From a virus, in the IMG/VR virus record IMGVR_UViG_3300027836_000020, positions 1 through 38,415 of that record: DNA of 38,415 bases; one strand, given 5' to 3'. The number at the start of each line of letters is the position of its first letter. The stretch's first letter is position 1. The position numbers and the translations under genes are program-made. The notes under the pieces were generated by a model that saw only the letters and a list, made by a program, of their open reading frames with translations, had not been told where the DNA came from and did no database searches. This document shows, in pieces, positions 1,451-33,469 of this stretch.

Positions 1451-2392
1451 TTAATGTGTAGGATTAATAATACTACTTGATGTATTAATTCCTGTATGTA
1501 GTCTTGGATTATGAGGAGCATAACTAAGAAACATATTATAATAATTATGATATTGAGCTCTTCTATTCATTGTAAAAACTTTTTGCATTTCAGCAAAATC
1601 AGGTGTATTTACAAATGATAAAGCATTATTTCTTGCAGGTCTTAAACGTGCTTCAATTAATTGCAATTGAGGAGTTACTTGTTCTCCTTGCCAAATCATG
1701 TTTTCCAATATTCTTTGTTTTAAAGCATATTCATAATACTCATTACAAAGTGGTTGATCAAGAACTAATAAATCACCATTAGGTGATTCCATTGCCCCTT
1801 GATAACTTATATATACTCTACCACTAGGAAAATTAGTAATTAAAAAACCATCAACTATTTGTGCAATGTCTGGTGCTTGTGCAGCTAACTCAGGACAAAA
1901 ACAACTTTGTTGATTGATATCTTGAATCTTTAATTGTGACCAAGTACTATAAGTTCTATATTGAGTTGGAGAAATTCTTTGAATTATTTGATAACTACGT
2001 TCATCATTACATGTTTTAATTACACATGCATCAATACAATCTTGTCCTGTACTGCAAACAGCAACTTCTCCTGGTGCAGGTACATAAGGTACATCATTAA
2101 ATGTTTCAACATGTGTGCCTGATGGCATTGATGCATTAACTTTATATTCACCACAAAGAAATGCATAATTGATATATGCAAAATCTCTAGGTAATTGAGC
2201 TCTACCATGTTCAACATCAATTATTGTTTCTTTAGTTCTATGTATTTTTAAACCTAATTCATAATTAATTCTAGTAGCAACTTTAATTAATTGTTGTGGT
2301 TCAATCATTCCTTCTAATGAATAAGATGCAAAATCAACTGCAACATCTTCATATAATTGACTGAATGTTCTATATTTATGTGATACTCCCAT
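1451..2392 (-). CDS. Tail ring/adaptor-type protein (313 aa)
   Basis: A 313-aa protein with a helical N-terminal part (residues about 8-55) followed by HGRAQLPRDFAYINYAFLC, a pattern typical of crAss-like connector/ring proteins that sit between portal and tail. The middle is Cys-containing beta-rich sequence, and the C-terminal third is helical (YYEYALKQRILENMIWQGE) with a His/Asn/Tyr-rich tail. The ATG overlaps the stop of the upstream gene by one base (TAATG), so translation is probably coupled. Expected role: oligomeric ring of the neck/tail in the virion. The exact ring position cannot be assigned from sequence alone. Confidence 0.55.
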   Translation of the reverse strand: MGVSHKYRTFSQLYEDVAVDFASYSLEGMIEPQQLIKVATRINYELGLKIHRTKETIIDVEHGRAQLPRDFAYINYAFLCGEYKVNASMPSGTHVETFNDVPYVPAPGEVAVCSTGQDCIDACVIKTCNDERSYQIIQRISPTQYRTYSTWSQLKIQDINQQSCFCPELAAQAPDIAQIVDGFLITNFPSGRVYISYQGAMESPNGDLLVLDQPLCNEYYEYALKQRILENMIWQGEQVTPQLQLIEARLRPARNNALSFVNTPDFAEMQKVFTMNRRAQYHNYYNMFLSYAPHNPRLHTGINTSSSIINPTH

Positions 2393-3069
2393 TATCTATT
2401 TATATTTTGTTTATTATCTAAATCATCACTTGGTACTTTCATTGTATTCATCATAGTGTTTATGATTTGAGATTCAATCTCAGCAAACATAGCTTCAGGT
2501 ATATAAATTGGTTGCTTGTATCTTGGGGTACAATCATCTTTTGTATCACAATTCCATTTTGTAATATCATCATTAAATACTCCCTCAACTCTAATAGCAT
2601 CCCATTCAAGATTAGGAGAATAAACATAACCATCTATCCACCAAAAATATTTTGTTTTATTATATTTAAAAGATGTTGTTTTAGTCATTGCTGTATATAC
2701 TCCAGGATATGTAGCTTGAAGTTCTGTTGAACCATCTATTGAAGTTATAGTACGTATAAGAGGTCCCCAATAACCTTCAATCATAGAAGGTAATTTAAGT
2801 TTTGTACGTTTGATTGTACAACCACTTGTAATACCAGAACAACCGGCTTCTACTTTATCTACATCAATCATTTCAACATATGGAAGAACCTTCCATACAG
2901 AGTTGAACTTCATTAATTTGTTTAATGAATCTTGTCTTCTCATTAAAACTTGAGCATACTTTTCTATTAAACTATAAATATATCTATCTGTTACAAAAGA
3001 ATCTTGTACCTCAGCTTTTACTTGACCTCTTATTCTTGATATTGCTTCTGCTATTATTATCTGTGACAT
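2392..3069 (-). CDS. Tail ring/adaptor-type protein (225 aa)
   Basis: A 225-aa protein opening with a helical region (EAISRIRGQVKAEVQDSF, then a YIYSLIEKYAQVLMRRQDS helix), followed by a beta-rich middle with Cys pairs and many aromatics (KYFWWIDGYVY) and a final helix (EAMFAEIESQIINTMMNTM). This helix-beta-helix layout and its place directly before another ring-type gene match the crAss-like neck/tail ring proteins. It is coupled to the next gene by a TAATG overlap and preceded at 5 nt by the 188-aa gene. Virion location is inferred; no enzymatic motif is visible. Confidence 0.5.
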   Translation of the reverse strand: MSQIIIAEAISRIRGQVKAEVQDSFVTDRYIYSLIEKYAQVLMRRQDSLNKLMKFNSVWKVLPYVEMIDVDKVEAGCSGITSGCTIKRTKLKLPSMIEGYWGPLIRTITSIDGSTELQATYPGVYTAMTKTTSFKYNKTKYFWWIDGYVYSPNLEWDAIRVEGVFNDDITKWNCDTKDDCTPRYKQPIYIPEAMFAEIESQIINTMMNTMKVPSDDLDNKQNINR

Positions 3070-5625: not shown

Positions 5626-7860
5626 TTATAATGTTGAACAACTACTAGTAATTAATGAATTTACTGCTGCTGTTGTATACTCTACATCCCAGTTACCACC
5701 AGTTGCTGTAGCAAATGATCTCCAAGGATAGATTGTTGGACCTCCTACTGGAGTATAAGTTGCACTTGTTCCTGCACCTAATACAAAACATTTAATACCT
5801 GCTAATAAACAAGTTTGAGCTAATGAGTTTAATCTTGCTACATCTGTATTATTGAAATTATCATCATTTCCACTTGATAATGACTCAGTATAAATTATTA
5901 CATATTTAGCAACTCCACTTCTAAATGCTCCAGCAAAGTCATTTGATTCAACAACAAAACCAATAGCCATATCAGTAGGTTGAGGAGTATTAACACCACT
6001 TCCAATTGGCCAAAATGTAGGAGCAGCACCTGTATCAATTTTATTTAATTGAGTTGTAAATGATGTTGAATTATTTGTAGCCATCATTTCTACAGCTGTA
6101 ATAAATTGCCATGTACTACCAATACCTGTATTTACAACTTTTTGAGCAGTTGGTAAAGCTACATAATCTACTGAAGTAGAGTAAGATGCTGTAGAACTAG
6201 CCCATTCATCTGCTAAAACTAAACCTAATCTATAATCATTACTTCCAGCTTCTGTTTGTATTGTACTTATAGTAGATGCAATACCTAGTTTAATAGTATC
6301 AATAGTTGGACTCATTCTAGATGTATAGTCTAATACAAATACTACATCTAATCCATCAACACATGGAGCTGAAGCAGTGTTTGTTGTAAATGTTACATTA
6401 TTAATTGTACAAACTTTTGTTTGACCACCTACTTGAATTGTTACTCTAGTTATATATAATGTACTTGGAATTAATCCTGTAAAGGCATGTGTTACTGTAA
6501 CACCTGGTGAATTTTGTGTATATGTATCTACAATAATATTTGTTGTAGAATTAATAATATCTATAATATAAACTGGTGTTAGACCTAAAGCATTTGTAAA
6601 TGTAACAGTAGCTCCTGTTGATGTAATTAAACTCATAACGGGTGATGGACAAGGAATAACCCCCGCAATTGATTTTACTATTGTATCATTACATGTATTT
6701 TCACCATCTGTAACACAAAATGCTACAGAAGTAGTTAATGGAGCATAAGTATTTAAAGTTGATAATCCTATAGTAACACCTCCTGCAGAATTTTGTAAAG
6801 CTGCAACACTCACTGTATTAGTAATTGTAACATTGTTACTATCTGTAATAGTAACAATTGTACTACCTGCGCAATCATTATATATTGCTGGTATAACACA
6901 ACCATTTCCATTTGTATTTTGAAAATTAAAATTAAGAGCTCCTATTGTACCTGTACCAGTTAATACATTTGTTACACTATAACCAAAAGATATACCATCA
7001 CATCCTGAAGGACAACAAGTAGTTTGAATATTTGAAATAGCAGTATACATATCACATAACACAGCCCATATATTTTGTGTGCTTTGTGCTAAATTAATTG
7101 GACTATTATTCCATCCGGTTATTGAACCATATGATACTGCTGAATTAGATAATGAAGGTGTAGTTGATAATATGCAAGAACCTTGGCTAATAGCTAAATT
7201 GATTGCGGAAGGTAAACCTACTGCTGTTTCTAATGCACAAAATCTTACTTCTAAAGCAAGTAATAAAACAGATACATCTGTTAATACTCCTACATTAATA
7301 ATACATGTAGGAACTACTTTTTTCTCAACAACATTTCCACTACATGGTAAAACACATCCTTCTAAAACTGTTATTCTAGTATTATAATTACTTAATGTTG
7401 TATTAATATAAACTATTGAGGTAAGTATATCACAAACTTTATTGGCAATAAGAGTTGTAAATAAATCTAAACGTAATTCTGTTACTGGATTTCCTGATGG
7501 ATCATTATAAACTAAACATGCAGGCAAAGTCATTATAGGTAATGTAAAGCCCGGTCTATTTGTATTTGTATTTAATTCACATATTGCAATAACCATTTGT
7601 TGTAAAACAGGAACTAACGTAGTAGGTGTAGTACCAGGAATATTAAGACATGATAAATCTAAACCTGCTAAACTTGGATTAGAAGTAACCCCCTCTGTAA
7701 TTAAGTCACATACTAAAGTAGCTAATTTAGCTGTTACATCACTAATTGTATCTCCATTACAAAGATTTATACAACTAATATCAGGACCTTGCCAAATAAC
7801 GCAGTTAGATGAAATACTATCACAGCCATTTGTTGTATTACTTGAATTTGTTGGTATCAT
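5626..7860 (-). CDS. Large appendage protein with FN3-like and von Willebrand factor A domains (744 aa)
   Basis: Residues 1-300 contain Cys-bearing repeats of one type (ISCINLCNGDTISDVTAKLA; LDLSCLNIPG; further Cys-flanked helices), a style seen in crAss-like tail fibres. Residues about 404-495 look like a fibronectin type III unit (LIPSTLYITRVTIQVGGQTK). Residues 503-744 form a vWA-like domain: DVVFVLDYTSRMS carries the first metal-site motif in altered form (D511, T513, Arg at 515 where Ser is usual), PTDMAIGF supplies a Thr-containing second segment, and KYVIIYTES matches a later core strand. vWA domains usually mediate adhesion. Role in host attachment is inferred from the domains and from the fibre-gene neighbourhood. 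The leader carries the recurring late motif at 7898-7924. Confidence 0.65.
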   Translation of the reverse strand: MIPTNSSNTTNGCDSISSNCVIWQGPDISCINLCNGDTISDVTAKLATLVCDLITEGVTSNPSLAGLDLSCLNIPGTTPTTLVPVLQQMVIAICELNTNTNRPGFTLPIMTLPACLVYNDPSGNPVTELRLDLFTTLIANKVCDILTSIVYINTTLSNYNTRITVLEGCVLPCSGNVVEKKVVPTCIINVGVLTDVSVLLLALEVRFCALETAVGLPSAINLAISQGSCILSTTPSLSNSAVSYGSITGWNNSPINLAQSTQNIWAVLCDMYTAISNIQTTCCPSGCDGISFGYSVTNVLTGTGTIGALNFNFQNTNGNGCVIPAIYNDCAGSTIVTITDSNNVTITNTVSVAALQNSAGGVTIGLSTLNTYAPLTTSVAFCVTDGENTCNDTIVKSIAGVIPCPSPVMSLITSTGATVTFTNALGLTPVYIIDIINSTTNIIVDTYTQNSPGVTVTHAFTGLIPSTLYITRVTIQVGGQTKVCTINNVTFTTNTASAPCVDGLDVVFVLDYTSRMSPTIDTIKLGIASTISTIQTEAGSNDYRLGLVLADEWASSTASYSTSVDYVALPTAQKVVNTGIGSTWQFITAVEMMATNNSTSFTTQLNKIDTGAAPTFWPIGSGVNTPQPTDMAIGFVVESNDFAGAFRSGVAKYVIIYTESLSSGNDDNFNNTDVARLNSLAQTCLLAGIKCFVLGAGTSATYTPVGGPTIYPWRSFATATGGNWDVEYTTAAVNSLITSSCSTL

Positions 7861-7988: not shown

Positions 7989-8246
7989 TTATCCTAATGG
8001 ATTTTCAGAAGGATCTTCTATTGGTGAAATTGAACCATCAATTAAATTGACATTAACTTTACCATACTTTTCTTCTAATATTTTTGCAACTGCATCAAAT
8101 TCTACTTTAACTTTAGAATATTCAGCAAACATTGCTTGTTTAGCTAATTCAGCATTACCTAAATTTAAAGTAATATTATTAAGTTTTTGTTGAACTTCAA
8201 CTAAACCCTCTAATTCTTCTTTTGTAAGTTTAACAGTCTCTCCCAT
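7989..8246 (-). CDS. Small coiled-coil protein in the fibre cluster (85 aa)
   Basis: A mostly helical protein: residues 5-60 have heptad-like spacing (LTKEELEGLVEVQQKLNNIT ... KVEFDAVAKILEEKYG), followed by KVNVNLIDGSISPIEDP, a Gly/Pro turn and a short acidic end. Small proteins with a long coiled coil ending in a YGxxNVNLxxG-like segment are common beside virion genes in phages of this kind, but their job is not known to me. It could be a fibre chaperone or minor virion component. It sits between the type IX secretion substrate and the vWA protein, with a 56-nt leader containing TATATTTG, which fits the Bacteroidota -7 consensus TAnnTTTG. Confidence 0.6.
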   Translation of the reverse strand: MGETVKLTKEELEGLVEVQQKLNNITLNLGNAELAKQAMFAEYSKVKVEFDAVAKILEEKYGKVNVNLIDGSISPIEDPSENPLG

Positions 8247-8302: not shown

Positions 8303-9976
8303 TTATTTTATAAATTTTATACTTTTACAATTTGCACACATAAAGTCTATGATATATATTCCTTTTGATAAGTTACTTACATCTAATTGAATCTCATTAC
8401 AGTCAGCTATAATTATTCTTCCTAAAGAATCTATGATGTTATATCTTGAAGATATTTCACCCTCTATGTATAAAATATCTTTTACAGGATTAGGGAATAC
8501 AAACAAACCTTGATGTGTTAGTTCTTCAGTTTCCAATGTAGTTTGATAAACTAATATAAATCTGTTGTTAAAAGTTCCTATTTCTGTATTAAAAGTATAA
8601 GGTGTTTCCAAGTTATGGAATGTGCCAAATTCAGAATCAAACAACATTAAATTATAACCCTCAAAGTTTGTGAATCCATCTAATGATAAAGTGAAGTTAC
8701 CAGAAACATTTGCTTTATATCCTAACTGAATGACATCATTATTATCAAAAGCACCCCTAGATTCAATCTTATAGTTATTCTCATTTACTGTATATAGACT
8801 AATCCAAGTATTTCTATTTCCATTTTCTTCATCATATCTGTAATCATTTGCAAGTGATGTGTTACTTCTGTAATCTATTAAGACTTCTGAATACTGTTGC
8901 TCATAAGTTAAAGCAATCCAATACTGTTTTAATTCTTCTGTTCTATGAAAATCTTCATTAGAATAACCCTCATTTCTTAAAGAGTTATTAAAGGTAAATA
9001 CACCAGGATTCAATGCTCTAACCATAAATCCTTGACAAGATGCTATATATCTAGTTGGTCTATCACTATTTGTAACTGATTTTGTTCCTCCAGTTAAATT
9101 TAATCTAGAGTAATCATTGCTTGTAAAGTTTAAAGTGTTTATACCAGAATTGCTTGGAGAGATTGCAGTTGTATGTGTCCAAAAATATAATGTACCTGAA
9201 ATATCAGGATTTGCGTTTATAGTATTGTCTGAAAAGCAAGAACTTAAATAAGGGTTTCCTATAAGATTAAAATCATCTGCATTACTTAATGGATTACCAC
9301 TCATAACTAAAGGAACTGTAATTATACCATTGTTAGGCAATCCTGTAAAGGTAGTAGAGTAAACAGTTGGTGTTGTTACATCACTTGATGCTTTAGCTGC
9401 AAATCCTACACCTGGAACCATTATGTCTGTTTGTACCATTGGTTGCCAAGCATCACCATCATCATCTTGACCATCAGGAAGTGCATTGATATAAGTTCCA
9501 TTGTATGTAGTTTCTACATCAATAAAATTACTTGTATTAAACTTAAATATTCTATCTGTTACCCAAGTGCTAAAGCTTGAACCTAATATACTGCTTACCA
9601 TTGGACTTGACCAATAAGTATAGTCATCATCAATCATTGGTGTAGTATTTCTAATACAGAATATTGTTCCTGTGCCACTAACTGTTCCTGAATCATTTAC
9701 CTGTATAAAAGAAGCACTGTCTGATAAACCTAAAGTTCCATTAATAGTTAAATTATTAGTTGCAGATACATATAAGAAAGGAGCTATTGTTAACATAGCA
9801 CCAGATTCAATAACGAGATTATAGCATTTAAAACTAACTCCATTGTAATTTCCTTGAAGTGTAGCATCTATGAACTCATTAGGAGCTCCCAATGACCAAG
9901 TAGTACCATTCCAAACAGTTTGAGAATTACTATTAAACCCAATAAATAAAACTAGCAATAAAATTAATTTTTTCAT
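8303..9976 (-). CDS. Secreted type IX secretion system substrate carried by the phage (557 aa)
   Basis: The N-terminus MKKLILLLVLFIGFNSNSQ is a clear Sec signal peptide of flavobacterial style. The last 67 residues (491-557) form a type A sorting domain: FPNPVKDILYIEG, then YNIIDSLGRII, then LSKGIYIIDF and a Lys-rich end KSIKFIK, the pattern that directs proteins through the type IX secretion system to the outer surface. The body is beta-rich: an early strand-repeat region, a YTYWSSPM segment near residue 120 and FNLIGNPYLSS near residue 240, as in flavobacterial surface proteins. No protease or glycosidase motif is seen. It lies 19 nt downstream of a small fibre-partner gene with the same A-rich leader style, so it is a working part of the late operon. 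Probably acquired from a host; cell-surface modification during infection is inference. Confidence 0.85.
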   Translation of the reverse strand: MKKLILLLVLFIGFNSNSQTVWNGTTWSLGAPNEFIDATLQGNYNGVSFKCYNLVIESGAMLTIAPFLYVSATNNLTINGTLGLSDSASFIQVNDSGTVSGTGTIFCIRNTTPMIDDDYTYWSSPMVSSILGSSFSTWVTDRIFKFNTSNFIDVETTYNGTYINALPDGQDDDGDAWQPMVQTDIMVPGVGFAAKASSDVTTPTVYSTTFTGLPNNGIITVPLVMSGNPLSNADDFNLIGNPYLSSCFSDNTINANPDISGTLYFWTHTTAISPSNSGINTLNFTSNDYSRLNLTGGTKSVTNSDRPTRYIASCQGFMVRALNPGVFTFNNSLRNEGYSNEDFHRTEELKQYWIALTYEQQYSEVLIDYRSNTSLANDYRYDEENGNRNTWISLYTVNENNYKIESRGAFDNNDVIQLGYKANVSGNFTLSLDGFTNFEGYNLMLFDSEFGTFHNLETPYTFNTEIGTFNNRFILVYQTTLETEELTHQGLFVFPNPVKDILYIEGEISSRYNIIDSLGRIIIADCNEIQLDVSNLSKGIYIIDFMCANCKSIKFIK

Positions 9977-9995
9977 TTTATTATTATTTTAAAAA

Positions 9996-10169
9996 TTATA
10001 GTTCTCTATTATCTATTTCTTCTTGAGTAAAAAATTCTCTGTTATATACAGTACCATTTGCTATTAAATAGGCTCTGTATAATTCAAATGTAGGTTCACC
10101 ATCTTCCATAATCACAATCTCATTGAGATCGTTAAATATTATACTATCTGATGTTAAATAATAAGTCAT
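9996..10169 (-). CDS. Small acidic fibre-associated protein (57 aa)
   Basis: ATG 10169 lies one base after the stop of the 848-aa fibre gene, and the frame runs 57 codons to TAA at 9996. The protein (MTYYLTSDSIIFNDLNEIVI, then an acidic helix FFTQEEIDNREL) resembles small proteins coded directly after fibre genes in marine and freshwater phages. The tight coupling suggests it helps fold, trimerise or attach the fibre. No domain is recognised; the role is inference from position. Confidence 0.65.
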   Translation of the reverse strand: MTYYLTSDSIIFNDLNEIVIMEDGEPTFELYRAYLIANGTVYNREFFTQEEIDNREL

Positions 10170-10170
10170 A

Positions 10171-12717
10171 TTAAGTAAATTTAGTTAGTTGCATTCCTCC
10201 AAAATCTAAAGCACATATTGCTGAATTGGCATTGTTACTACATCCTGCTGACATTGTTAGCAATGTTGAAGCTGCTATTAAATTAGTACTTACTGTTCCA
10301 GTAACTGTATCTCCGGTATTTAATCTTTTCAATGTATATTTAATATTTCCACTTACTGTTTCTATAGTGGCATAGTACATATCTGTAGAAACTGTATTAG
10401 CAGGAAAAAGAGCACCTAAATCTATTGAAGTTGCTGTTCCTGTTGCATCATTGTGAATGAATTGCCAGTTAGTATTTCCATCTATTCTAGCAAAGGCTGC
10501 ACAATTTATAAATGTAGTAGGATCAACATTTGTTACGCTAAAATTTGCTGTAAATACCCCCATAGAATATCTTACATTTGTATTTGCTGCGCCTGTTGAA
10601 GCACCCATTTTAAATGTTAATTTAAACCCTGAATTTATAGTAAAATAACCTGTTAGTTGTCTTATATTAGATACAGCTGCTGCAACAGCTGTAGTTTCTA
10701 AAGCAGTTCTTGTTGTTCTTGTAAATAGATTAGTATCGGCAATAGTTCTTGTACTTGGTCCATTACCAAAAACTAAAGCAGCTCCTACAACATTATTTGT
10801 TGATGCAGCACCATTATTAGGCATATTAATACACATGTCTGATAATAAAAAATCATTAGATTTATTATTCCAAGTTGTAGAAGACGCTATTCTTGCATCA
10901 GCAAGTGTACCTGCCCATGTTAATGTATGTGTAGTTCCTGAAGAAACTATAGTGACATTAGTGTCATTAACAAATGTTTGTGCAGCTCCTGTAAGACTAT
11001 TAAGAGCAGTGATACCTGTTCCAGCCATTATACCTGACTGCTGTGTAACTGTTAATACAACAGATGCTGTAGATGGAGGGGGACTTCCTGCAGGTTCAAA
11101 TGAAATAAATACAGATGTATCTTGTGTGCTCCATACAAACTCATAATAATCTCCTGCAACAGGATCAAGAAGAAAGTTCCATGAAGGAAGTGTGTGACCA
11201 TCAAAAGCTCCATGTTTTTTAGGAACTAATACAACCCCTGCTGAACCTGCAACATCAACACCATTCTTTCTAAGCCAAATGGTAACGTCGTGTTCATTTG
11301 CTGTTGGGTTTCTAAACTGTGCACTCCATTGAATATTATATATTCCTGTATTTGCTATTGTAACTCTCGATCCACTAACTACAGTGACACCATTTGATAA
11401 GTCAGTTACACCTAACAGCATTGGATAGCCTGTGTTAATTACAGCAGCAAATTGGTCTGTTACATCAGAAAATGCTCCATAATATCCTGTTGGTGTTGCA
11501 GCAGTATTAGTTCCCCATTTTAATCCTGTAGTTGCTGTACTATCAGCTATTAATACTTGTGTATCAAGTCCTACTGGTAATCTTACATCAACTGTACTAA
11601 ATGTATATAAATCTCCTTTAGTAGTAAGAGGAGATGATGATGTAGCTATTGTCCAACTTCTATCAGCAGTTAAGTCATAACCAATTCCATTAATAGTTAA
11701 TGTTCTTGCATTTGTTACAGGTGTATATCCTAAAGCAGTAGTTACATCTAATGATGTAATAGAAGTTAAATATGTATTAGTATCTAAAGTAAATGTTCCT
11801 ATAGCAGTCATTTTTACAAATGATGTAGAAGCATAACTAAGTGCAGATAAAGATGTTAAATTAACAGAACCTGCTTGTTTACTATTCCAATTAGTTGCTG
11901 ATGTTATTCTACTATCTGCAAGAGTGCCCGTCCAACCAAGTGTTAAAGAAGTTGCCTGTAACAATGCTGTAGCGGGAGTACCCCCCAATGTTAATGTAAC
12001 ATTTGTATCATCCGTTTTTGTCAGAGCTGCTGGTGTTACAGAAGGGATTGCTGGTTTATTAAGAATCTGATTGTTACCACTTGTTGAGTTCCAATCTGCA
12101 GGTTGTTGAACAAGAGGAAATCCTGCTCCAAGATTAACCCAATATAATGTACTTGTTGGTAACAATGAATCATTATTAGCAATACATCTATATACATTTC
12201 CAAGATACCAAACAAGATCTCCTATTATATATTGATTATTAGTTGCAGTTAAATGATCAGTTGTAAATGGTAAAGCTGAAAGCAGACTTACTGGAGGATT
12301 TACAATAGTTGACCAATTATAAGGTACACCATCTATAGTAAGTGTATCAATATCAATTTGAAGATTATTTGAAGCATTTAAGTTATCTACAATTCTAATA
12401 GTAGGAAAAGCACTATCATTTAAGAATAATGTTCTATTATTAGTAAAATTAGTAGATTGAATAGATGCATTACCTATACCGCCAAAATTAGAAATAGTAT
12501 TACCAGAATCAACAACTTGTTGTAATGTTGATGCTGTTCCAGTTCCTGAAGTAATAGATACCCATGCCGCTAAAGTTTTTAATCTTAATTTACTAATATT
12601 AGTGTTATAGTAAATTTGTCCTGTAGTTGAAACAATAGGATCAGCATTTAAATTTTGAATTACTGCATGTTGTAATTCATTCTGATTTAAGTCTACATCA
12701 GTTAAAAATTTACCCAT
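10171..12717 (-). CDS. Modular tail fibre / receptor-binding protein (848 aa)
   Basis: The N-terminus (FLTDVDLNQNELQHAVIQNL, then GQIYYNT) is the virion-attachment style of many phage fibres. Residues 160-195 read like a family 5/12 carbohydrate-binding module (IIGDLVWYLGNVYRCIANND ... LYW). Residues 208-225 hold a fibre spacer (DWNSTSGNNQILNKPAIP). Repeats around WTGTLADSRI (residue about 262) and WAGTLADARI (about 602) flank residues 411-562, a C1q/jelly-roll-like domain common in environmental phage fibres (IANTGIYNIQWSAQF; IWLRKNGVDV; DYYEFVWS). The final 230 residues are a separate beta-rich tip and the best candidate for host specificity. Trimer formation and glycan binding are inferred from family resemblance. 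Confidence 0.8.
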   Translation of the reverse strand: MGKFLTDVDLNQNELQHAVIQNLNADPIVSTTGQIYYNTNISKLRLKTLAAWVSITSGTGTASTLQQVVDSGNTISNFGGIGNASIQSTNFTNNRTLFLNDSAFPTIRIVDNLNASNNLQIDIDTLTIDGVPYNWSTIVNPPVSLLSALPFTTDHLTATNNQYIIGDLVWYLGNVYRCIANNDSLLPTSTLYWVNLGAGFPLVQQPADWNSTSGNNQILNKPAIPSVTPAALTKTDDTNVTLTLGGTPATALLQATSLTLGWTGTLADSRITSATNWNSKQAGSVNLTSLSALSYASTSFVKMTAIGTFTLDTNTYLTSITSLDVTTALGYTPVTNARTLTINGIGYDLTADRSWTIATSSSPLTTKGDLYTFSTVDVRLPVGLDTQVLIADSTATTGLKWGTNTAATPTGYYGAFSDVTDQFAAVINTGYPMLLGVTDLSNGVTVVSGSRVTIANTGIYNIQWSAQFRNPTANEHDVTIWLRKNGVDVAGSAGVVLVPKKHGAFDGHTLPSWNFLLDPVAGDYYEFVWSTQDTSVFISFEPAGSPPPSTASVVLTVTQQSGIMAGTGITALNSLTGAAQTFVNDTNVTIVSSGTTHTLTWAGTLADARIASSTTWNNKSNDFLLSDMCINMPNNGAASTNNVVGAALVFGNGPSTRTIADTNLFTRTTRTALETTAVAAAVSNIRQLTGYFTINSGFKLTFKMGASTGAANTNVRYSMGVFTANFSVTNVDPTTFINCAAFARIDGNTNWQFIHNDATGTATSIDLGALFPANTVSTDMYYATIETVSGNIKYTLKRLNTGDTVTGTVSTNLIAASTLLTMSAGCSNNANSAICALDFGGMQLTKFT

Positions 12718-14122: not shown

Positions 14123-14158
14123 TAAAAAAAAGAGTAGGAGTTTTTATACCCCTACTCT
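14123..14158 (-). terminator. Strong intrinsic terminator after the 487-aa virion protein
   Basis: On the minus strand AGAGTAGG pairs with CCTACTCT (8 bp, 12-nt loop) and is followed by a run of eight T. It lies between the stop at 14197 and the next leader. Confidence 0.85.
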
Positions 14159-14196
14159 TAATTTTTAAATAAAATAACCTTTATCAGGTCTAGATT

Positions 14197-18210: not shown

Positions 18211-19827
18211 CTAGAATGATCCACCAGTGATTGGATTTCTCATAACTATTTTTAAAACTTTAGTTGGATCCTTAACCCAAATAGCAGGCATAGTTTGTGA
18301 CATCATTACACGGTATCCATTGAAGTTACCAGTAGATGCAAAACCTTGAGTTCTTCCCATGTAATCCATAGTTCCATTTTGGTAGAACCATTTCAATTGA
18401 TTATCCCAAGATAATTTCAATAAATGGATGTTATCATTTCCTTCATCTGTTACGTCAAAGATAATGAAGCTATAAGAACTTAATGGACGGCCATCAATTA
18501 ATGGATTCTCAATATCATTAGTATTCAAGTTATCAAACGCAGGGTTCAATACAAACTTAACATTAGCTAAGAAAGGAATAGTAAATGAAGTGTAAGCAAA
18601 TCCATAATCTAGATCCATACCTTTACCTGTAACAGCTCCAATCTCACTAGCATTTTGTACTAAACCAGAACCATATACTTCATCAGCAATAGCTTTGTTG
18701 ATCAATTGCATACCACCAATACCTGTTTGAACAACAAGTGATCTTTGAGGATCTGGACCTTTGAACTCAACTTTACCTTGGTAGAAGTTATATAATTCAG
18801 ATTTAAACATATCAAGTGTGAAAGAAGACTTGTTATAAACTCTTTTGAATGAGTTATCCAACTGCGCCCATAATCCCACAGATAATCTAATATCATCTGG
18901 ACCATCTTGTTTGATTCTACCACCTTTACCCCACATCAAGTAAGTTTCAATATCTGAAGCAATTTTTGATAAGTGAGCAGCTTCCATGTTAGTAATAAAT
19001 GTTCTAGTAAGAGATCCATTTTCAAATGCTTCTCTTGCACCAGCTTTACCCATGTTAGCAATTAATCCTTCAATACTAGGTACAGCTGGATCATTGTTAG
19101 CTCCAAAGTTTCTCCAGATTTCAGTTACAGGTACAGTACCATCTGCATTCAAACCACCTTTGATCATAAGATCAGCACGGCTAGAAATAGAATAATGTAC
19201 ATGTGCTTCAGCTCCTCCTACAAAGTTGTAGAACTCACGGAAACCAGAACCTGTTTCAATGTCAGAGAATCTTTCTCCGTACTCACCTCTTGCAGAACCT
19301 TTTCTGAAGAACTTAGTACCTTTAGCTAAATACTTATTATCTAAGCTAGCTACATTGTTGTTATTTACTAATTGAACAGTATAGATAAAACCGTCACCAG
19401 CAGGAATGATATCATCAGCTGTAATGTAAAGTTCTAATCCATTGTATTTGTCATAAGTGATAATATCACCATGTCCAAATGTTCTTTTAGAAATTTTAAT
19501 TTTGAATGTTGTACCATCTACACCTTTAGTAGCATTAGCTGGTTCAATATCTGCCACAATATATGGAAGATCTTGTGCAATTGGAGTTTGCCATTTGTAC
19601 TCACCACGTGCATTATCTACCATGATAGTATTCTTTCCACCAAATGATGCCATTTGATAAAGCGGCATTTCAACTTTTTGAGTCATTGCCCATAAATCAA
19701 TTGGTCCCATATCCATAGGTTCTGCTGAACCTAGCATCTGAGTCAAGTGATAAGAATCAACATGAGAACTTGCTTTGTAGCTTGTATCTCTTAGGAAAAT
19801 TCCGTTGTTTAAAACTGGAGTTGCCAT
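18211..19827 (-). CDS. Major capsid protein, HK97 fold (538 aa)
   Basis: The protein begins MATPVLNNGIFLRDTSYKAS and contains segments I recognise from crAss-like capsid proteins: MGPIDLWAMTQKVEMPLYQM near residue 40, RGEYKWQTPIAQDLPYIVAD near residue 73, and FREFYNFVGGAEAHVHYSIS in the middle. Gene order (portal, acidic protein, this gene) and length fit. It forms the icosahedral shell. The gene looks less AT-rich than its neighbours, as expected for a very highly expressed product, and is followed by the strongest terminator of the module. The stop is TAG, so this phage does not reassign TAG in late genes. Confidence 0.92.
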   Translation of the reverse strand: MATPVLNNGIFLRDTSYKASSHVDSYHLTQMLGSAEPMDMGPIDLWAMTQKVEMPLYQMASFGGKNTIMVDNARGEYKWQTPIAQDLPYIVADIEPANATKGVDGTTFKIKISKRTFGHGDIITYDKYNGLELYITADDIIPAGDGFIYTVQLVNNNNVASLDNKYLAKGTKFFRKGSARGEYGERFSDIETGSGFREFYNFVGGAEAHVHYSISSRADLMIKGGLNADGTVPVTEIWRNFGANNDPAVPSIEGLIANMGKAGAREAFENGSLTRTFITNMEAAHLSKIASDIETYLMWGKGGRIKQDGPDDIRLSVGLWAQLDNSFKRVYNKSSFTLDMFKSELYNFYQGKVEFKGPDPQRSLVVQTGIGGMQLINKAIADEVYGSGLVQNASEIGAVTGKGMDLDYGFAYTSFTIPFLANVKFVLNPAFDNLNTNDIENPLIDGRPLSSYSFIIFDVTDEGNDNIHLLKLSWDNQLKWFYQNGTMDYMGRTQGFASTGNFNGYRVMMSQTMPAIWVKDPTKVLKIVMRNPITGGSF

Positions 19828-21297: not shown

Positions 21298-24045
21298 TTA
21301 TTTATCTTTAGGTTTTTTAACATCATATTTATTTTTATTCTGTATGGCTATATTTAATTGATTATTTGATATTTGTGTTTGTGCTGCAATTCTTTCTCTT
21401 TCAACTTGAAGTTTCTGAGATTCTGTAGATGACTTGCTTACCATTTCCTCACGTTTCATATTCATTTGTTCTCTATATTGAGTTGTTTGTTGAATATCTT
21501 TTAGTGCATCTTGATAATCATTTATCTCATTTTTGTTTACATCAACACCAGCTCCATATCCAGCAGCTCTAATTTCAGCAATTGTAATATCATTCTGTCT
21601 ATCTTTTTCAGCTTCTTGTTGTTCTAATTGAGCTTTCATTTGAGCATCTTGCGCCTGTGCTTGTAACTGTTGTTCTTGCATCTGACGTTGTTGTTGCATT
21701 TCCTCTTGTCTTTGAGCTGTAATTCTTGCTTCAGAATCTTTTAAGATATCTGTTACTTCACTAATAGAATCTGCTTTAACAATATTTCCAAGTTCATATA
21801 TACTAGCACCAGTTGTATTATTAGTTAATGCCATTTGTTTTAACTGCTCAAGAATAGCTCTATGATTTGTTTTAGTTGTAGCATATACATTGAAATCTCT
21901 CATTAAAAGATCTGTACCATTAATTGTAAAGTTTACCTTTTCTGCTTCAGTAGATATATAACTTAATCTTACACTTGGATTTGTACTATAATAATACTGA
22001 GCTAAGTCTGTTCTCATCTGATGTACTCTTGGCATAAGCTGATCTGAATGCTGTACAAAATAAATTTCTGTTTGAGCATATGATTGTTGCATAGCATTCA
22101 TTACTCCAGTAGCTGTTTCTGCCGCAATAGCACCACCTAATCTTTGAGGGTTAATACCTATTGCATCAAAACATTGTTGTTTAAAATAATTAGCTAATTG
22201 TATTCTACTCATTAATCTACCAGTTTGCTCCATGTTTAGAGTCTGATAGTGTTGGAAGTTTACAGCATTTTCTGTATTAGTAATTGATGTATCAAGAGGA
22301 AGCATTTGGAAATCCTTCATTGCTACATATGCTTTAGCATAATTATTTTTACCCCAATCTTCTCCCATAGAGTGACGTGGTAATGCATTCTGATCAAACA
22401 TAATTACTGTACCTAATTCATCAATTAAAATATCAGCAATTTGATTATTAACCATGTTATATCCAACTTGATATGCTTTCATTAAATCTACTAAAGAAGT
22501 AGATCTAGTATTTCTATCAGAGAATACTCTTCCTTCTACAGGCAACTTACATCCATATAATGAATTATTACCTTTAAATTGAAATGGTAATCTTCCCGGT
22601 TTAGTTCTATTAATACCTAAGTATATTGGATTTATTTCACTACTTGTTGAACTTCTCCACATTGCAGGTATATTAGGCCCTACTTTTACACCACCCCAGA
22701 TTTCATTAATCCAAATCCAATCAAGATGTTCTCCTTGTAATAATGTATCCTTAGATTTATTTTTAAATATTGATGTATCATAAATAGCTTTTTCTGTTAC
22801 CTTAAATGTTTCATCAACTATTTCTTGAGTTACTTCACCATCAAATTCTATTTTAGTAAGATGACCAATTTTTCTTTGAGTCTTCCAATAAATTGTAGAA
22901 ACTCTCATTAAGTTACCATCACCAAAATAAGCTAAGTCTTCACTTTGACTTAAAATTTGTGTTAAAATATCACCACCTCTAGCAGGATCTGCCATGTAGT
23001 TACTTGTATATTGTCTATATGCTAAACCTGGTGCATTAGTATTCCAAGCATGTGATCTTGTTGCATCATAATAAGCACCATCATTTTGATATCCATTAAC
23101 TTGATATTGAGCAGATCTTGCCGGATAAATTCTTTGTAATGATTCCAATTGTTCTTGACTCATCAAATATCCATACTTATCTACAACATCAGCTACTGTC
23201 ATTAAATCAATCTTACCAACATATGCTGAATCAGAAATATATCTTTGATCTGGAGACTTTTGATAGAATGTCAAAACAGGATTCCATAATTCAATATCAT
23301 AATCATCTTCTAACATACGGAAATGCCAGAACTCTCTATCAGCAATAAGCATATCTCTAAAGCCTCTTTCTTCAAGCTCTTGCATTTTAAATCTTTCTTC
23401 ATCAACATTTAATTGATGAGTAGCCCATTCTTCAACAGAACTTCTATATGACTTACTAAAAAAGTCTTCAATTTCAGGTAATGATTTAAGATTTTGTGGA
23501 GCAAGTTGTTGCTGTGCTTCTTCAGATGATGGATCCATTCCCATTTGAATCATTTTTTCTGTCAACTTTCTTTCAGCATCAGCAAGTAAAGCTTCTTCAA
23601 CTTGCATTCTTTTTTGCTCAAGCATTTCATTATATGATCTATCATCAACTGCTCTGAATTGTACCTTATTGTATCTTTTGGAAAACTCCCCACTTAATAC
23701 ATTAATTACATTTGGAATAATAGGGTAAAATTTAAGTTCTAAAGCTGAATCATTTTCTTTAGTTAAAACATCCATTAAATCTTTATAGTCATTATCAGGT
23801 TCAACTATATAATCTGTTTTATCTATAATTCCTTTAGCTAATTTATAATTTTTTAAAAGTCTTCTGGCATTAAGTTTTAAAAATTGAATACCTTGATCTT
23901 CTAACCAATCTAAATTCCATGCTGCCCAATCATCTGTTTTTTCACTATAAGGTAAAAATTGAATAGGTTGTGTTAAACTAGAAAAGGTAGGTCCTTCTGT
24001 TTTTTTTGCACCGGCTTTTAACTGCATTGCATTAAGTACTTTCAT
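21298..24045 (-). CDS. Portal protein (915 aa)
   Basis: This long protein directly follows the terminase and precedes the scaffold and capsid genes, the fixed place of the portal. The N-terminal half is the crown/wing type sequence (ADRKF-free but with REFWHFRMLEDDYDIELWNP near residue 240), and the middle has ANYFKQQCFDAIGINPQRLG followed by GGAIAAETATGVMNAMQQSY, a segment typical of portal stem helices. Residues about 755-915 are a Gln/Glu-rich coiled coil (EEMQQQRQMQEQQLQAQAQD) that would form an extended barrel into the capsid. It forms the twelve-subunit DNA channel at one vertex. Confidence 0.88.
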   Translation of the reverse strand: MKVLNAMQLKAGAKKTEGPTFSSLTQPIQFLPYSEKTDDWAAWNLDWLEDQGIQFLKLNARRLLKNYKLAKGIIDKTDYIVEPDNDYKDLMDVLTKENDSALELKFYPIIPNVINVLSGEFSKRYNKVQFRAVDDRSYNEMLEQKRMQVEEALLADAERKLTEKMIQMGMDPSSEEAQQQLAPQNLKSLPEIEDFFSKSYRSSVEEWATHQLNVDEERFKMQELEERGFRDMLIADREFWHFRMLEDDYDIELWNPVLTFYQKSPDQRYISDSAYVGKIDLMTVADVVDKYGYLMSQEQLESLQRIYPARSAQYQVNGYQNDGAYYDATRSHAWNTNAPGLAYRQYTSNYMADPARGGDILTQILSQSEDLAYFGDGNLMRVSTIYWKTQRKIGHLTKIEFDGEVTQEIVDETFKVTEKAIYDTSIFKNKSKDTLLQGEHLDWIWINEIWGGVKVGPNIPAMWRSSTSSEINPIYLGINRTKPGRLPFQFKGNNSLYGCKLPVEGRVFSDRNTRSTSLVDLMKAYQVGYNMVNNQIADILIDELGTVIMFDQNALPRHSMGEDWGKNNYAKAYVAMKDFQMLPLDTSITNTENAVNFQHYQTLNMEQTGRLMSRIQLANYFKQQCFDAIGINPQRLGGAIAAETATGVMNAMQQSYAQTEIYFVQHSDQLMPRVHQMRTDLAQYYYSTNPSVRLSYISTEAEKVNFTINGTDLLMRDFNVYATTKTNHRAILEQLKQMALTNNTTGASIYELGNIVKADSISEVTDILKDSEARITAQRQEEMQQQRQMQEQQLQAQAQDAQMKAQLEQQEAEKDRQNDITIAEIRAAGYGAGVDVNKNEINDYQDALKDIQQTTQYREQMNMKREEMVSKSSTESQKLQVERERIAAQTQISNNQLNIAIQNKNKYDVKKPKDK

Positions 24046-24066: not shown

Positions 24067-26283
24067 TTATTTATAATTTTTGAAGCCTGATCTTTTTATT
24101 GTATTTCCAGTATTGTTTCCACTACGTCCAATATTTTTAAACGGACTATACTTTAATTTATACAAATTTTCTGGATTTACCAAAGATTTTTCTTCTGATT
24201 CACGTCTTTTTGAAAAACCTCTATTAGATTGTTGTATTTTTACAAAAGCTACTAATGCTCCAAATGCAACAAGTCTATCTACGTTAAGTCCAGGATAGTA
24301 AGCTAACATTTCTTTTATAAGCATTCCATCAGGTATTCTTTCAACACCTAATGTTTGATTTGTAACAACACCACCAACATCAGTTTCTTCATCTATGACT
24401 TCTCTTAAAAACTCAATTGCATATGATATCAAATGGCTTTTAAATAATGTACCTGTATTCTTCCATCCATACTCTTGATAAACAGTATTGTTTGAACCAA
24501 GATCTTTTAAGAATAAAATTTGTTGTTTAGGTACTAAATATCTTTGTTTCTTTCTAGCAATCATATGTTGTATAAACAAAGATATATTATTCTCAACTAT
24601 AGTCCAGGCATTGTACCATTCTATAATTAATTCTAATCTTTCATGTGTTTTATTTATATCATCAAACCTACCACACCATGATGCCACAATTTTATCTTTC
24701 TCTAAAAATTGTTCTACATCTCCAGATATCATAGTTCTTGTAACCTCTGTTGCATTCTTATAAACAAAAATACTACATAAGGAATCTGATGTAGTAGTCT
24801 TACCTTCTGATACGGGGTCAATAGAGGCATAATAAGCTCCAAACTCAGGATTCTTGACAGGACGTTCCCAAACAATAATACTTCCCGTCTTATCCACTTG
24901 TTTTTTGTCTACAGGAAATCTGCTGATTGGAAGTTTATTTGTTCTTTTAGCAAAGATTCCTTTTTCATCTCTATCTAATTCAATTAGTTCATAAGGATAT
25001 GTTTTCTCTTCAATTCTTTTTTGTTGCCTAGATAGTATACCTTGTGGAAATACAGATGCTTTTCTATATGCAAATGCTTCTGCAATATTCAAAGGTTTCT
25101 GAGATATTCTTAATTGAAACTGTTCACCATTTAATTCATTCTTCCATCTTTCTCTTTCTTCAGCAATTGCTTGTTCAGCTTCTTTTACTAAAGAGTTTCC
25201 ATAGTCATCAATAAATGGTGGCATTGACCATTGTTCTGGTATAAATAAACCAGCCATACCTATTGTACCATCTGCATCAATAAGATCAGTCTCAACAGCA
25301 TATATATCATTTGCTACTGGATTAGTAATCATTTCTTTCAAAGGGTTGCATTGTTCTAAATCTCCCACTGATCCTGCAGCAATAAACATACCTGTAGTAA
25401 TCATACCTGAAGACATTGCAGGACGTAAGTACTCATATGTCTCAGACATCTTTGGAGCAATACCGGCTTCTTCATGAAAGAAAATTGAACATGGTCCCCC
25501 TACTCCAGTAGTTGCATTCTTTTCAAATGAACCCCCTTGTATTTTTGATTTTAAACCTCTTGCTGTTTTTCTATTACCAATTCTAACTTCAATTTGCTGT
25601 TGCCATAATAAAACCTTTTCTGGATTACTAGGTCTATACCAAGCAGTATGCTCATTTAAGAATGTTTTGTATTCATCTAAAAACTTCCATGATCCTTTAT
25701 CATTTATAAAATCTTTAAGTGATGCACCAATCTTACAGATACTTCCTTCCTCAAACCAATAGGTATTAATAATTTTACCCATGTGAAAGTATGAAGATGC
25801 TATCTGACGTTTCTTTAATATAGCTGAATGTTTGTAATGTAGTTCTGCAAGTTGTTCATATAAAGCCATATGATACTGAGCATCCCTCACTTTAGCAAAA
25901 CCATATTTTTTTTCTTCTTTATCAAAGATTGGAAGAAAGTTTAACCACATGTAGTAGTCTCTGGTTAAATACCAGCTTTTATTTCCATCATTATAAATAA
26001 CTCCCTCTCTACATTTATTTTTTTGGTCTTCCCAATATTGAGTAAAATCTTTAGACCTAAATGGTTTATTACAATAAAATCCCTGTTCATTAAATATTTG
26101 AGCTTGTTCATTAAACTTAAAAGAAAGTTCATTAAACTCATAATGACCAGGGACGTTAAATATACTTAAAACATAATCTATAAAATCTTGTCTAGTTTCA
26201 AATTCTGTAGTTGTCCAAGAATTATTTTTATATGTTGGTATAGTTTTATACATATTTAAATTTAGCATATACATCACCTTCAT
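24067..26283 (-). CDS. terL: Terminase large subunit (738 aa)
   Basis: The ATPase half shows a degenerate Walker A (KKRQIASSY, residues 158-165), Walker B ending in acidic residues (CSIFFHEEAG, about 265-274) and a coupling motif (IAAGSVGD, 301-308). The RNase H-like nuclease half has D489 (YYASIDPVSEG), E564 (TIVENN) and D669 (LNVDRLVAFG) as candidate metal ligands. It cuts concatemeric DNA and drives it through the portal. Four in-frame ATGs occur at 26283, 26274, 26268 and 26253; the first overlaps the co-chaperonin gene by 38 nt, while the last overlaps by 8 nt and has a more A-rich leader, so the true protein may be 728 aa. Portal follows by 21 nt. Confidence 0.92.
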   Translation of the reverse strand: MKVMYMLNLNMYKTIPTYKNNSWTTTEFETRQDFIDYVLSIFNVPGHYEFNELSFKFNEQAQIFNEQGFYCNKPFRSKDFTQYWEDQKNKCREGVIYNDGNKSWYLTRDYYMWLNFLPIFDKEEKKYGFAKVRDAQYHMALYEQLAELHYKHSAILKKRQIASSYFHMGKIINTYWFEEGSICKIGASLKDFINDKGSWKFLDEYKTFLNEHTAWYRPSNPEKVLLWQQQIEVRIGNRKTARGLKSKIQGGSFEKNATTGVGGPCSIFFHEEAGIAPKMSETYEYLRPAMSSGMITTGMFIAAGSVGDLEQCNPLKEMITNPVANDIYAVETDLIDADGTIGMAGLFIPEQWSMPPFIDDYGNSLVKEAEQAIAEERERWKNELNGEQFQLRISQKPLNIAEAFAYRKASVFPQGILSRQQKRIEEKTYPYELIELDRDEKGIFAKRTNKLPISRFPVDKKQVDKTGSIIVWERPVKNPEFGAYYASIDPVSEGKTTTSDSLCSIFVYKNATEVTRTMISGDVEQFLEKDKIVASWCGRFDDINKTHERLELIIEWYNAWTIVENNISLFIQHMIARKKQRYLVPKQQILFLKDLGSNNTVYQEYGWKNTGTLFKSHLISYAIEFLREVIDEETDVGGVVTNQTLGVERIPDGMLIKEMLAYYPGLNVDRLVAFGALVAFVKIQQSNRGFSKRRESEEKSLVNPENLYKLKYSPFKNIGRSGNNTGNTIKRSGFKNYK

Positions 26284-29263: not shown

Positions 29264-29615
29264 GGCCTAATATTTTATAATCTAATAAAACCAAACCATC
29301 TATTTGAACATTAATGTTTTTATTGATAGAAATAGTTTTTTTATTTACACCATTTTTAACAATTAACTTTTTCTTTTCTGCTTTTGCCAAAGCATTTCTA
29401 GCTGATTGTGGACTTTTAAATATTTTTTGTTCAGTTAAAAATATACAAAATTTAGTTAATTCAACTTTTGGTTGTTTAGATAATTCCATTAAACATTTGA
29501 GATCTGAATTACTAATTAAAATATTTTCAAAAAAACAATATGTAAGTATCTGATACTTAATGGTTTCATTAATATCTACTTGTAATTTTAAATCTACTTT
29601 ATTTACTATAGCCAT
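29244..29615 (-). CDS. Winged-helix-like small protein (123 aa)
   Basis: The order of helices and strands (YQILTYCFFENILISNSDLK; VELTKFCIFLTEQKIFKSPQ; SARNALAKAEKKKLIVKNGV) resembles a winged helix with a basic recognition helix and a following beta hairpin (KKTISINKNINVQ). This suggests DNA binding, but the match is by eye. It is coupled to the endolysin stop (TAATG) and overlaps the IHF-like gene by 20 nt, so all three are co-translated. Confidence 0.6.
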   Translation of the reverse strand: MAIVNKVDLKLQVDINETIKYQILTYCFFENILISNSDLKCLMELSKQPKVELTKFCIFLTEQKIFKSPQSARNALAKAEKKKLIVKNGVNKKTISINKNINVQIDGLVLLDYKILGRESQEA

Positions 29616-30538
29616 TATTTTAAACTCATTATCATATCAACTAAATCAGGATGAGGATAACAATCAAGTTTATCCTTTCTCACATTGGTATGTGTTAATA
29701 ATCCTTTAATCTTACCACTAGCAGCATCTTCATTATAATCAAATCCTTTAGTTGGTCCATATTTTTGTATTAGTTGTTTTAAACCCAACCTTACATCAAT
29801 ACTATCTCTTTCAGCAACATATTTAATCCATTTTTCAGTTTCTTTAATTTGTTTCTCTGAATATGCATGCCAATTTAAAAATCCTTTAAAGGCTTCTTTC
29901 AATGTTGTTACTTCATCTGGATGAGCCACAGTTCCTACATAGGTTTTATAATCTTTAGTAAGTTGACCCATATTACAAATTTCTAAACCTACAGAGTGTC
30001 TATTCATCCAACCGGATTTAGTTAAACCTAAATGCCAACCTTGGTTTCCTGTTGGAAAAGCTTGAACCATTTGACCATCATATTTAGCATCTCCAGTAGT
30101 ATGATTTTTACCACCTAAAACAAACTCAGTTCCAATAGCTCCTCTATCATCTTTATTCCACATATCAACACAAGCATATGGATTATTATTTCCAGCTGTA
30201 TGATGTAAAAATATATATTCATTTTTAATAGGCCCTTTGATATATTCTTTAGGAGATAAGTAATGTTTATGAATTATTTGATCAAAGTTAGTTTTGAAGT
30301 ATTGTCCATATATATCAGTATCTTCATCAATAGCTTCTTGTAATGTAGGCACTTTATTGAATAACAATGTCCACATATCTGAGTCTACTATTCCTGTAAT
30401 TGGTAAGTTATTAGATAGTTGAAATCTAATTACAGCTTTTTCTGTTGCAGGTCCAAACTGTGCATCCTGTTTTAATAGGAGTTTGGATTGAAGGGTCTGG
30501 ACATCTGGTCCAGAATCCCCTCTTTTTAACATCTTCAT
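29615..30538 (-). CDS. Endolysin: peptidoglycan-binding domain plus N-acetylmuramoyl-L-alanine amidase (307 aa)
   Basis: Residues 4-60 are a PG_binding_1 domain (LKRGDSGPDVQTLQSKLLLK, then FGPATEKAVIRFQLSNNLPI). Residues 100-300 are an Amidase_2 domain: H112/H113 (YIFLHHTAG), E186 (HSVGLEICN) and H283 with D292 (LTHTNVRKDKLD) are the likely zinc and catalytic residues. The enzyme cleaves the bond between muramic acid and the stem peptide to release virions. No signal peptide is seen, so it depends on a holin or spanin not evident nearby. The gene lies 3 nt after the 102-aa gene. Confidence 0.9.
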   Translation of the reverse strand: MKMLKRGDSGPDVQTLQSKLLLKQDAQFGPATEKAVIRFQLSNNLPITGIVDSDMWTLLFNKVPTLQEAIDEDTDIYGQYFKTNFDQIIHKHYLSPKEYIKGPIKNEYIFLHHTAGNNNPYACVDMWNKDDRGAIGTEFVLGGKNHTTGDAKYDGQMVQAFPTGNQGWHLGLTKSGWMNRHSVGLEICNMGQLTKDYKTYVGTVAHPDEVTTLKEAFKGFLNWHAYSEKQIKETEKWIKYVAERDSIDVRLGLKQLIQKYGPTKGFDYNEDAASGKIKGLLTHTNVRKDKLDCYPHPDLVDMIMSLK

Positions 30539-32174: not shown

Positions 32175-32915
32175 TTAGTTATAAACTCTTATCTCTATAC
32201 AAATAGCACTATTTAAAATATCATCTGCAAATATTTGAGGGTCTGATAATGTTCTTAAACTAACTACTAATTCATTATCTTTATAAAAAAAATATCCATA
32301 TTGATTTTCAAAAGATTCTCCACCTGATCCTATTATTCTATTAAAAACAGGAGTTCCAAAATTTGCTCCATTTATAAATGTCTTACTCTCCATAAATAAA
32401 TTATTAGAGTTTAATGGATATTTTCCAACACTATCATAAGTAAACCAAACATTCCCAATAGTATTTTCTAATATTATTGCTATTGGAGCACCCTCATTGT
32501 ATGCTAATATACTTGGATTAGTACCCCAATTATTAGGGTTAGCTCCTGTTGCTATAAAATAAGTTCCTGATAAATTATTAGGAGCACCTACATTTGTAAA
32601 GTCAGATTCTACACTAGGATTGTTAATCAAATAAGTTGCACCTATTGTTAAGTCTCCTGTATCAACTACTACTACGTTATCACCACCACTCTGTGATACT
32701 ATAGCTGTAAACACTTTATATTTAGGAGGTTCTATACTAGCTAGTACATGTCTTTTTATTCCACCAACAGTAAGTAAACTTGCTTCCATTTTAGGTTGTG
32801 GTTTCAACCTTTCATTTGCATTACCGTATGCTGCTGATATAATATAGTCATTATCTGATGGACTTTTGATTTTACGTTTGGTAATCAAACCCATAATATC
32901 TTGTAATGTAGTCAT
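32175..32915 (-). CDS. Virion-type protein, paralogue of the next upstream gene (246 aa)
   Basis: Residues 1-58 (LQDIMGLITKRKIKSPSDND; LKPQPKMEASLLTVGGIKRH) and the last residues (EIRVYN) match the 172-aa protein encoded at 32951-33469, while the middle is longer and different. The middle includes KVFTAIVSQSGGDNVVVVDT and AIILENTIGNVWFTYDSVGK, a beta-rich module seen at the ends of environmental phage fibre-like proteins. A virion surface or fibre-like role is likely. No enzymatic motif is present. Confidence 0.55.
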   Translation of the reverse strand: MTTLQDIMGLITKRKIKSPSDNDYIISAAYGNANERLKPQPKMEASLLTVGGIKRHVLASIEPPKYKVFTAIVSQSGGDNVVVVDTGDLTIGATYLINNPSVESDFTNVGAPNNLSGTYFIATGANPNNWGTNPSILAYNEGAPIAIILENTIGNVWFTYDSVGKYPLNSNNLFMESKTFINGANFGTPVFNRIIGSGGESFENQYGYFFYKDNELVVSLRTLSDPQIFADDILNSAICIEIRVYN

Positions 32916-32950: not shown

Positions 32951-33469
32951 TTAATTATAAACTCTAATTTCTACTGTAACTAAAGCCATTAGTCCATTAG
33001 CAGAAACACCAGACCTATTATAAGAAAATAAACCTATAGTCTCCTCACCGGCTATAGTTGTTCCTAAAAAAACATTATCTGAAGTTTTTCTTCCAGGACT
33101 AACCATAATAACTGTCTTCCCTGAAGTAAATTTATTACTAGTAGTTTTGATACTGTAATCTCCTACACCATTATATTCATAAGTAACTGGAGCTCCAATA
33201 GTATTTTCTAATAAAGTGTCTACAGCAGGAGCATTAGTTGCTGATTGTGAAATAATAGCCACATAACTTTTGTATGTAGCAGATGTTGGAGTTTGTTCTA
33301 CATATTTTTTTAATGCTGCCAAATTAATTAAATTTGCTTGCATTTTTGGTTGAGGTTTTAGCATTTCTTGCGCATCAGTGTAAGATGCAACTACCAAATA
33401 ATCTTTATCTGTGGGAAGTTTAATTTTACGTTTAGTAATTAATCCCATGATGTCTTGTAATATATTCAT
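32951..33469 (-). CDS. First gene of the leftward late module, virion-type protein (172 aa)
   Basis: Residues 1-57 (LQDIMGLITKRKIKLPTDKD; LKPQPKMQANLINLAALKKY) are shared with the 246-aa protein; the rest contains YKSYVAIISQSATNAPAVDT and LENTIGAPVTYEYNGVGDY and ends VEIRVYN. It is a tandem paralogue with conserved ends and variable centre. It opens the leftward transcription unit, directly next to the divergent control region. Confidence 0.55.
   Translation of the reverse strand: MNILQDIMGLITKRKIKLPTDKDYLVVASYTDAQEMLKPQPKMQANLINLAALKKYVEQTPTSATYKSYVAIISQSATNAPAVDTLLENTIGAPVTYEYNGVGDYSIKTTSNKFTSGKTVIMVSPGRKTSDNVFLGTTIAGEETIGLFSYNRSGVSANGLMALVTVEIRVYN

Follow-up and report, generated by a model that had tools for sequence, protein, structure and literature searches.

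The window, by which we mean the whole 38,415-base stretch analysed, carries among its phage tail-fibre genes a gene (8303–9976, minus strand, ATG start) whose 557-amino-acid product is strongly predicted to be exported by the type IX secretion system (T9SS) and whose body corresponds to the C-terminal module found in RemA and RemZ, gliding adhesins of Flavobacterium johnsoniae. We hold the combination of export design and RemA identity to be close to certain. The T9SS is one of the main systems by which Bacteroidota bring proteins to their outer surface, and their gliding surface is built by it as well. An earlier note on this DNA had proposed a phage T9SS substrate inside a late tail-fibre block, and the proposal is borne out by profile searches, the signal peptide, structure prediction, relatives, purifying selection and a swap of the sorting domain.

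Export signals and phage setting of the gene

The 38,415-base IMG/VR record is read here as a fragment of a crAss-like phage because it contains a Crassvirus capsid gene (18211–19827; Crass_capsid, 104 bits), a portal gene (21298–24045; phrog_6547), a large terminase gene (24067–26283; TerL phrog_6681) and ring protein genes (CrAss_Ring_1 at 1451–2392, 35 bits; CrAss_Ring_2 at 2392–3069, 66 bits). Its capsid protein shares 22 to 28% identity with those of sequenced phages, including the Cellulophaga phages phi4:1 and phi17:2. An endolysin gene with PG_binding_1 and Amidase_2 domains lies at 29615–30538, and two tandem paralogues (32175–32915 and 32951–33469), which start alike (LQDIMGLITKRKIK), have 73% DNA identity over 188 bases.

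The open reading frame was found where it had been placed. Upstream of it on the minus strand lie a tail-fibre gene (10171–12717), whose C-terminal part is common to contigs L003 and L074–L077, and a 57-amino-acid fibre-partner gene (9996–10169), the distance of 19 nt between the latter and the RemA-like gene being as first described. The start codon is preceded by an A/T-rich leader of 22 nt (9977–9998, minus strand), which is common to L002 and L004 and forms the upper edge of an exchanged DNA block. Downstream is a helical-looking 85-amino-acid gene (7989–8246, minus strand), and L067 and L075 each have a weakly similar small gene at the equivalent location. Scans for sigma-70 and TTG/TAnnTTTG promoters returned nothing exceeding chance or decisive. 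Judging only by its position, the RemA-like gene would be expressed together with the virion genes. A strong terminator-like hairpin (14130–14159, minus strand; 12 pairs and a T run) is located upstream of the fibre block, and the C-terminal half of a 744-amino-acid neighbour (5626–7860) gives a weak von Willebrand A match.

The predicted Sec-type signal peptide (residues 1–19, MKKLILLLVLFIGFNSNSQ; 9920–9976, minus strand; cleavage site inferred) consists of KK and a hydrophobic core with a peak hydropathy of 3.46 (10-residue mean). The remaining 35 of the 36 minus-strand genes examined do not exceed 1.73, and 8303–9976 is the sole minus-strand gene with a strongly hydrophobic leader, in agreement with the signal peptide first read from the letters. 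The type A sorting domain recognised at the other end (residues 486–557; 8306–8521, minus strand) passes the curated cut-offs of both TIGR04183 (30.2 bits for residues 493–557, cut-off 23; 32.6 bits in a genome-wide search) and PF18962 (41.5 bits, cut-off 27). Between the two lies the body (residues 20–480; 8537–9919, minus strand), previously described as beta-rich; the AlphaFold model of the whole protein (mean pLDDT 76.8) is indeed mostly strand, and residues 18–345 modeled alone reach a mean pLDDT of 82.9. The modeled C-terminal domain (CTD) has seven strands (residues 491–556). When residues 488–557 were compared with T9SS-bound CTDs, the best agreement was with NucA (Z 8.1), RemZ (7.7) and RemA (7.6); structural matches to CTDs, FspA included, range from Z 7.1 to 8.1, a range in which generic Ig-like domains also score.

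A RemA/RemZ module without its long N-terminal region

The earlier note had likened the body to host surface proteins without naming them, and the closer identity is with RemA, a gliding adhesin, and RemZ, which is homologous to RemA and is the substrate that was captured inside the T9SS translocon (PMC10994853). Among PDB sequences, a profile built from phage and host copies found RemZ at E 1.5e-144 (residues 575–1113 of 1114) and RemA at E 3e-122 (residues 900–1435 of 1436). With the window protein alone, phmmer gave E 1.2e-47 for RemZ and 2.1e-43 for RemA, this single-sequence alignment spanning only residues 882–1413 of the 1436 of RemA. Homology to the F. johnsoniae proteins RemA and RemZ (Fjoh_0803), with PDB entries 8gl6 and 8gl8, covers their C-terminal 535–540 residues, sorting domain included, whereas the N-terminal 570–880 residues that RemA/RemZ have are missing from the window protein, in which nothing but the signal peptide lies upstream of the module. 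Owing to the missing N-terminal region, we file the protein as RemA-like, not as RemA; it is a RemA-type protein cut down to its C-terminal module. A Foldseek search of the PDB with the module alone returned no match at E < 0.001, and the RemZ structure is well resolved in the CTD only. A full-length Foldseek match (E 5e-26, TM 0.46) was obtained with A0A8D9C8P8, a BFVD entry from an uncultured marine phage, which is 18% identical to the window protein and whose annotation lacks a relation to RemA; its name, 'putative hemin binding protein', is probably a misnomer.

NCBIfam places the window tail in type A but gives the RemZ tail its highest score as type C, the class given to most host tails tested. 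The idea of a simple chimera, type C turned into type A, was considered and softened, as the RemZ tail also passes the type A profile (27.1 bits) and is PorV-carried; a type C tail carried in this way implies that the type C class is PorV-carried and overlaps type A. Lys1110 of RemZ is the single conserved translocon contact, with PorV (PMC10994853). Window residue K554 aligns with it in the profile and is invariant in a 14-row alignment, although another alignment, made from the tails only, paired the ends in a different way.

The module is present (E ≤ 1e-20) in 222 of 249 sampled Flavobacterium genomes, the genus being that of F. buctense, and the best identity is 43%. Host copies nearly always lie in much longer proteins, mostly of 800–3000 amino acids, with a few of 570–660.

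Relatives, mobility and exchange of the sorting domain

The same gene occurs amid phage genes in virus contigs L003 (90% protein identity), L002 and L004 (80%), the last two being near-identical and counted as one lineage. L003 has the same upstream neighbours as the window, namely the fibre C-terminus and the 57-amino-acid gene. Since homologues exist in three other virus contigs, an assembly artefact, which had already been dismissed, is excluded. Despite the ubiquity of the family in Flavobacterium, recent contamination by host DNA, a chimera created in assembly or a captured gene that serves no purpose has a negligible probability in our view: other contigs carry the gene with phage neighbours, the gene is under purifying selection, its G+C matches that of the window, the nearest host copy is 43% identical and host copies are nearly all in much longer proteins.

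The dN/dS ratio of the body is about 0.12 (0.044/0.376 between the window and L003, 0.057/0.482 between the window and L002), that of the sorting domain is 0.19 (window and L003), and the predicted signal peptide is 80–95% conserved in L002 and L003. The block homologous between the window and L002 extends from 9998 to 8535, that is from 22 nt ahead of the start codon to the sorting-domain border; DNA identity is 88% in the body and drops sharply at about codon 480, to 51% (27% at the protein level) in the sorting domain. The L002 sorting domain scores about 50 bits with TIGR04183, and the tails of both proteins pass the cut-off. In L002 and L004, the sorting domain thus appears to have been exchanged for a very different type A domain. 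In F. johnsoniae, type A CTDs are sufficient for export and CTD swaps are functional (PMC12618676). Such an exchange of one tag for another of the same class would be hard to explain unless export matters, and selection appears to maintain the export design. The same observations bear on the idea of a virion component, a fibre or tail decoration made from a borrowed host module that still bears its signal peptide and sorting domain as mere leftovers. The place of the gene among fibre genes and its beta-rich, fibre-like body would suit it; however, the signal peptide is conserved, the sorting domain is swapped within its class rather than decaying and unrelated phages share the same design, which makes a virion role very unlikely.

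A predicted lipoprotein gene, absent from the window, directly follows the RemA-like gene in L003 (9872–10723), L002 (2843–3709) and L004 (5043–5909). The lipoproteins of L003 and L002/L004 are 78% identical, and their starts, CSKETE or CSNETE, resemble the charged signal that directs Bacteroidota lipoproteins to the cell surface (PMC5080379); the L003 lipoprotein matched no family over the cut-off and had close relatives in L002 and L004 only. GIY-YIG (SegE-like) endonuclease genes bracket the pair in L002 (402–1028 and 4305–4970) and also in L004, and it is possible that these flanking endonucleases provide a movement route, as a homing cassette.

In L074–L077, the 57-amino-acid partner is 77–96% identical and the fibre tip 56–73% identical, and the partner appears to move between phages along with the fibre tip. 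The gene order in L067 is fibre, partner-like gene, small leader-bearing ORF, RemA-like gene, 121-amino-acid gene, second fibre-like gene, small helical gene and sheath, the partner-like gene being 24% identical to the 57-amino-acid partner (E 2e-5, small-gene E-values being those of single comparisons at a chosen place). L075 and L076 have the order fibre, partner, 121-amino-acid gene (49% identical to its L067 counterpart), small helical gene and a gene resembling a tail sheath. The RemA-like gene lies behind the fibre cassette in the window, L003 and L067, and is absent after the same partner gene in L075–L077. Because these last contigs carry the cassette without it, the RemA-like gene is an optional passenger that sits within or beside a fibre cassette which is itself mobile, and this suggests a link to receptor recognition. 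This link to the fibre is not universal, as the module stands behind the portal gene in L038 and at other places in L039–L043.

In all, the module occurs in 12 virus contigs: the window, L002–L004 and, as located by scans with family alignments, L038–L044 and L067. L038 (70 kb) has crAss-like terminase and portal genes, the module gene starting 7 nt after the latter; L039 (294 kb) has Gp23-type capsid and terminase genes in the same contig, and L040 (177 kb) also encodes Gp23. The others are L041 (69 kb), L042 (146 kb), L043 (141 kb), L044 (56 kb), in which the frame of the module gene is broken around 6309–6339, and L067 (52 kb), from a contractile-tail phage. The tails of L039, L041, L044 and L067 pass TIGR04183, those of L038 and L042/L043 are borderline and that of L040 is unrecognised. 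DUF4874-DUF4832 heads are fused to the module and sorting domain in L039 (4603–7623), L041 (4489–7647) and L067 (4594–7653), and a Beta-helix/PMP-repeat head stands ahead of the module in L044 (4807–7604).

In a tree that drew its host sequences from a single genus and a small number of relatives, the window group and L038–L041 form one clade, which holds seven of the nine phage copies tested (support 91/86), and L042/L043 are nested in a different host subfamily. A single origin for all nine copies was rejected (AU test, p 0.003). Given these two results, phages appear to have acquired the module at least twice, and the presence of both crAss-like and large Gp23-type phages in the first clade points to phage-to-phage exchange. 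A tblastn search of INPHARED gave zero matches for the proteins of the window, L040, L041 and L042, for the CTD of L002 and for the lipoprotein of L003. The capsid control worked, which means that detectable copies are missing from the phage records of that set.

A possible role at the host surface

Phage T9SS cargo is already known (2019, 2020). Cryophage encodes such cargo, for which superinfection exclusion was already suggested (PMC7468147), and T9SS sorting domains have been reported in crAss-like contigs (PMC6949934). Compared by description only, the Cryophage cargo resembles the window protein in being phage-encoded, in its type A sorting domains and in varying among phage variants, but comprises an endoglucanase, a GH39 and a PA14 protein, none of them described as RemA-like. 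The crAss-like 'cluster 2' contigs (PMC6949934) likewise have a T9SS sorting domain near structural genes, whereas some of their proteins bear BACON repeats and a relation to RemA is not described. The RemA identity, the swapped sorting domain and the recurrence in the fibre slot appear to be new, as they were not found in PMC7468147 or PMC6949934.

As the best explanation overall, we tentatively favour, at somewhat less than an even chance, a phage-adapted short RemA/RemZ surface protein that is exported and competes with or masks host adhesins. During infection, the protein would be made together with the fibre genes, pass the inner membrane via Sec, have its sorting domain captured at SprA/PorV and reach the outer surface or the medium. 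These export steps are drawn from established T9SS biology, and we judge export through SprA/PorV in infected cells to be highly probable. There, the 'headless' RemA might compete with or mask host RemA-like adhesins, which are candidate phage receptors, and also load the PorV route; infected cells and debris would then adsorb fewer further phages and fewer of the progeny (superinfection exclusion), and gliding would be lost as a side effect. Gliding-machinery mutants are phage-resistant, and RemA and SprB have been named as possible receptors (PMC13288928, PMC7345892). A short RemA devoid of the long N-terminal part and encoded beside fibre genes fits such interference, and the fibre-cassette link would fit a blocker matched to the receptor used by that fibre. 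The proposed outcome has a parallel in the T5 superinfection-exclusion lipoprotein Llp, which keeps later phages from adsorbing at the outer membrane (PMC9586334), but Llp is periplasmic, jams FhuA, has no homology to the window protein and follows a different export route. On the other side, superinfection exclusion would be expected to begin earlier than a late gene position suggests, which counts against this role, and the DUF4874-DUF4832 heads of L039, L041 and L067 imply that the module may serve as a base for display, not as a blocker. Receptor interference as the function is, in our view, less likely than not. The full scenario of a mobile 'headless RemA' cassette shared by flavobacterial phages, which would replace or mask the gliding adhesins that act as phage receptors, with T9SS-dependent, fibre-matched superinfection exclusion and interchangeable sorting domains, is rather unlikely to hold in every part.

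Nearly as likely as receptor interference, and itself doubtful, is that the exported protein alters host adhesion, aggregation or gliding and aids spread or a carrier state without blocking a receptor. RemA being a gliding adhesin, the other heads (DUF4874-DUF4832, beta-helix) looking like display of varied surface functions and the variable surface cargo suggested in PMC7468147 all argue for it, but the window protein is without the N-terminal 880 residues of RemA, and in a strictly lytic phage a late gene would have little time to act before the cell is lysed. The link with RemA makes both the superinfection block and the altered gliding proposed earlier more pointed. Release into the medium, possible for type A CTD proteins (PMC12618676), and the adjoining fibre genes would also agree with a decoy, either soluble or attached to debris, that once released captures tail fibres or inhibitors of host origin and shields progeny; binding of fibres by the module is however hypothetical, and a phage would suffer from a decoy that captured its own fibres at the wrong time, so that we regard a decoy as improbable.

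F. johnsoniae is the standard laboratory host, and its remA, porV and sprA mutants and the existing CTD reporters make the question of function directly testable. A gene family of phages that couples a gliding-adhesin module of the host to the T9SS would represent a concrete, testable route of cell-surface remodelling by viruses, and the interest of this family is strengthened by the retention of the export tag through recombination and by the recurrence of the module in unrelated phages. Our results suggest that some flavobacterial phages repaint the surface of their host during infection, possibly blocking rival phages.
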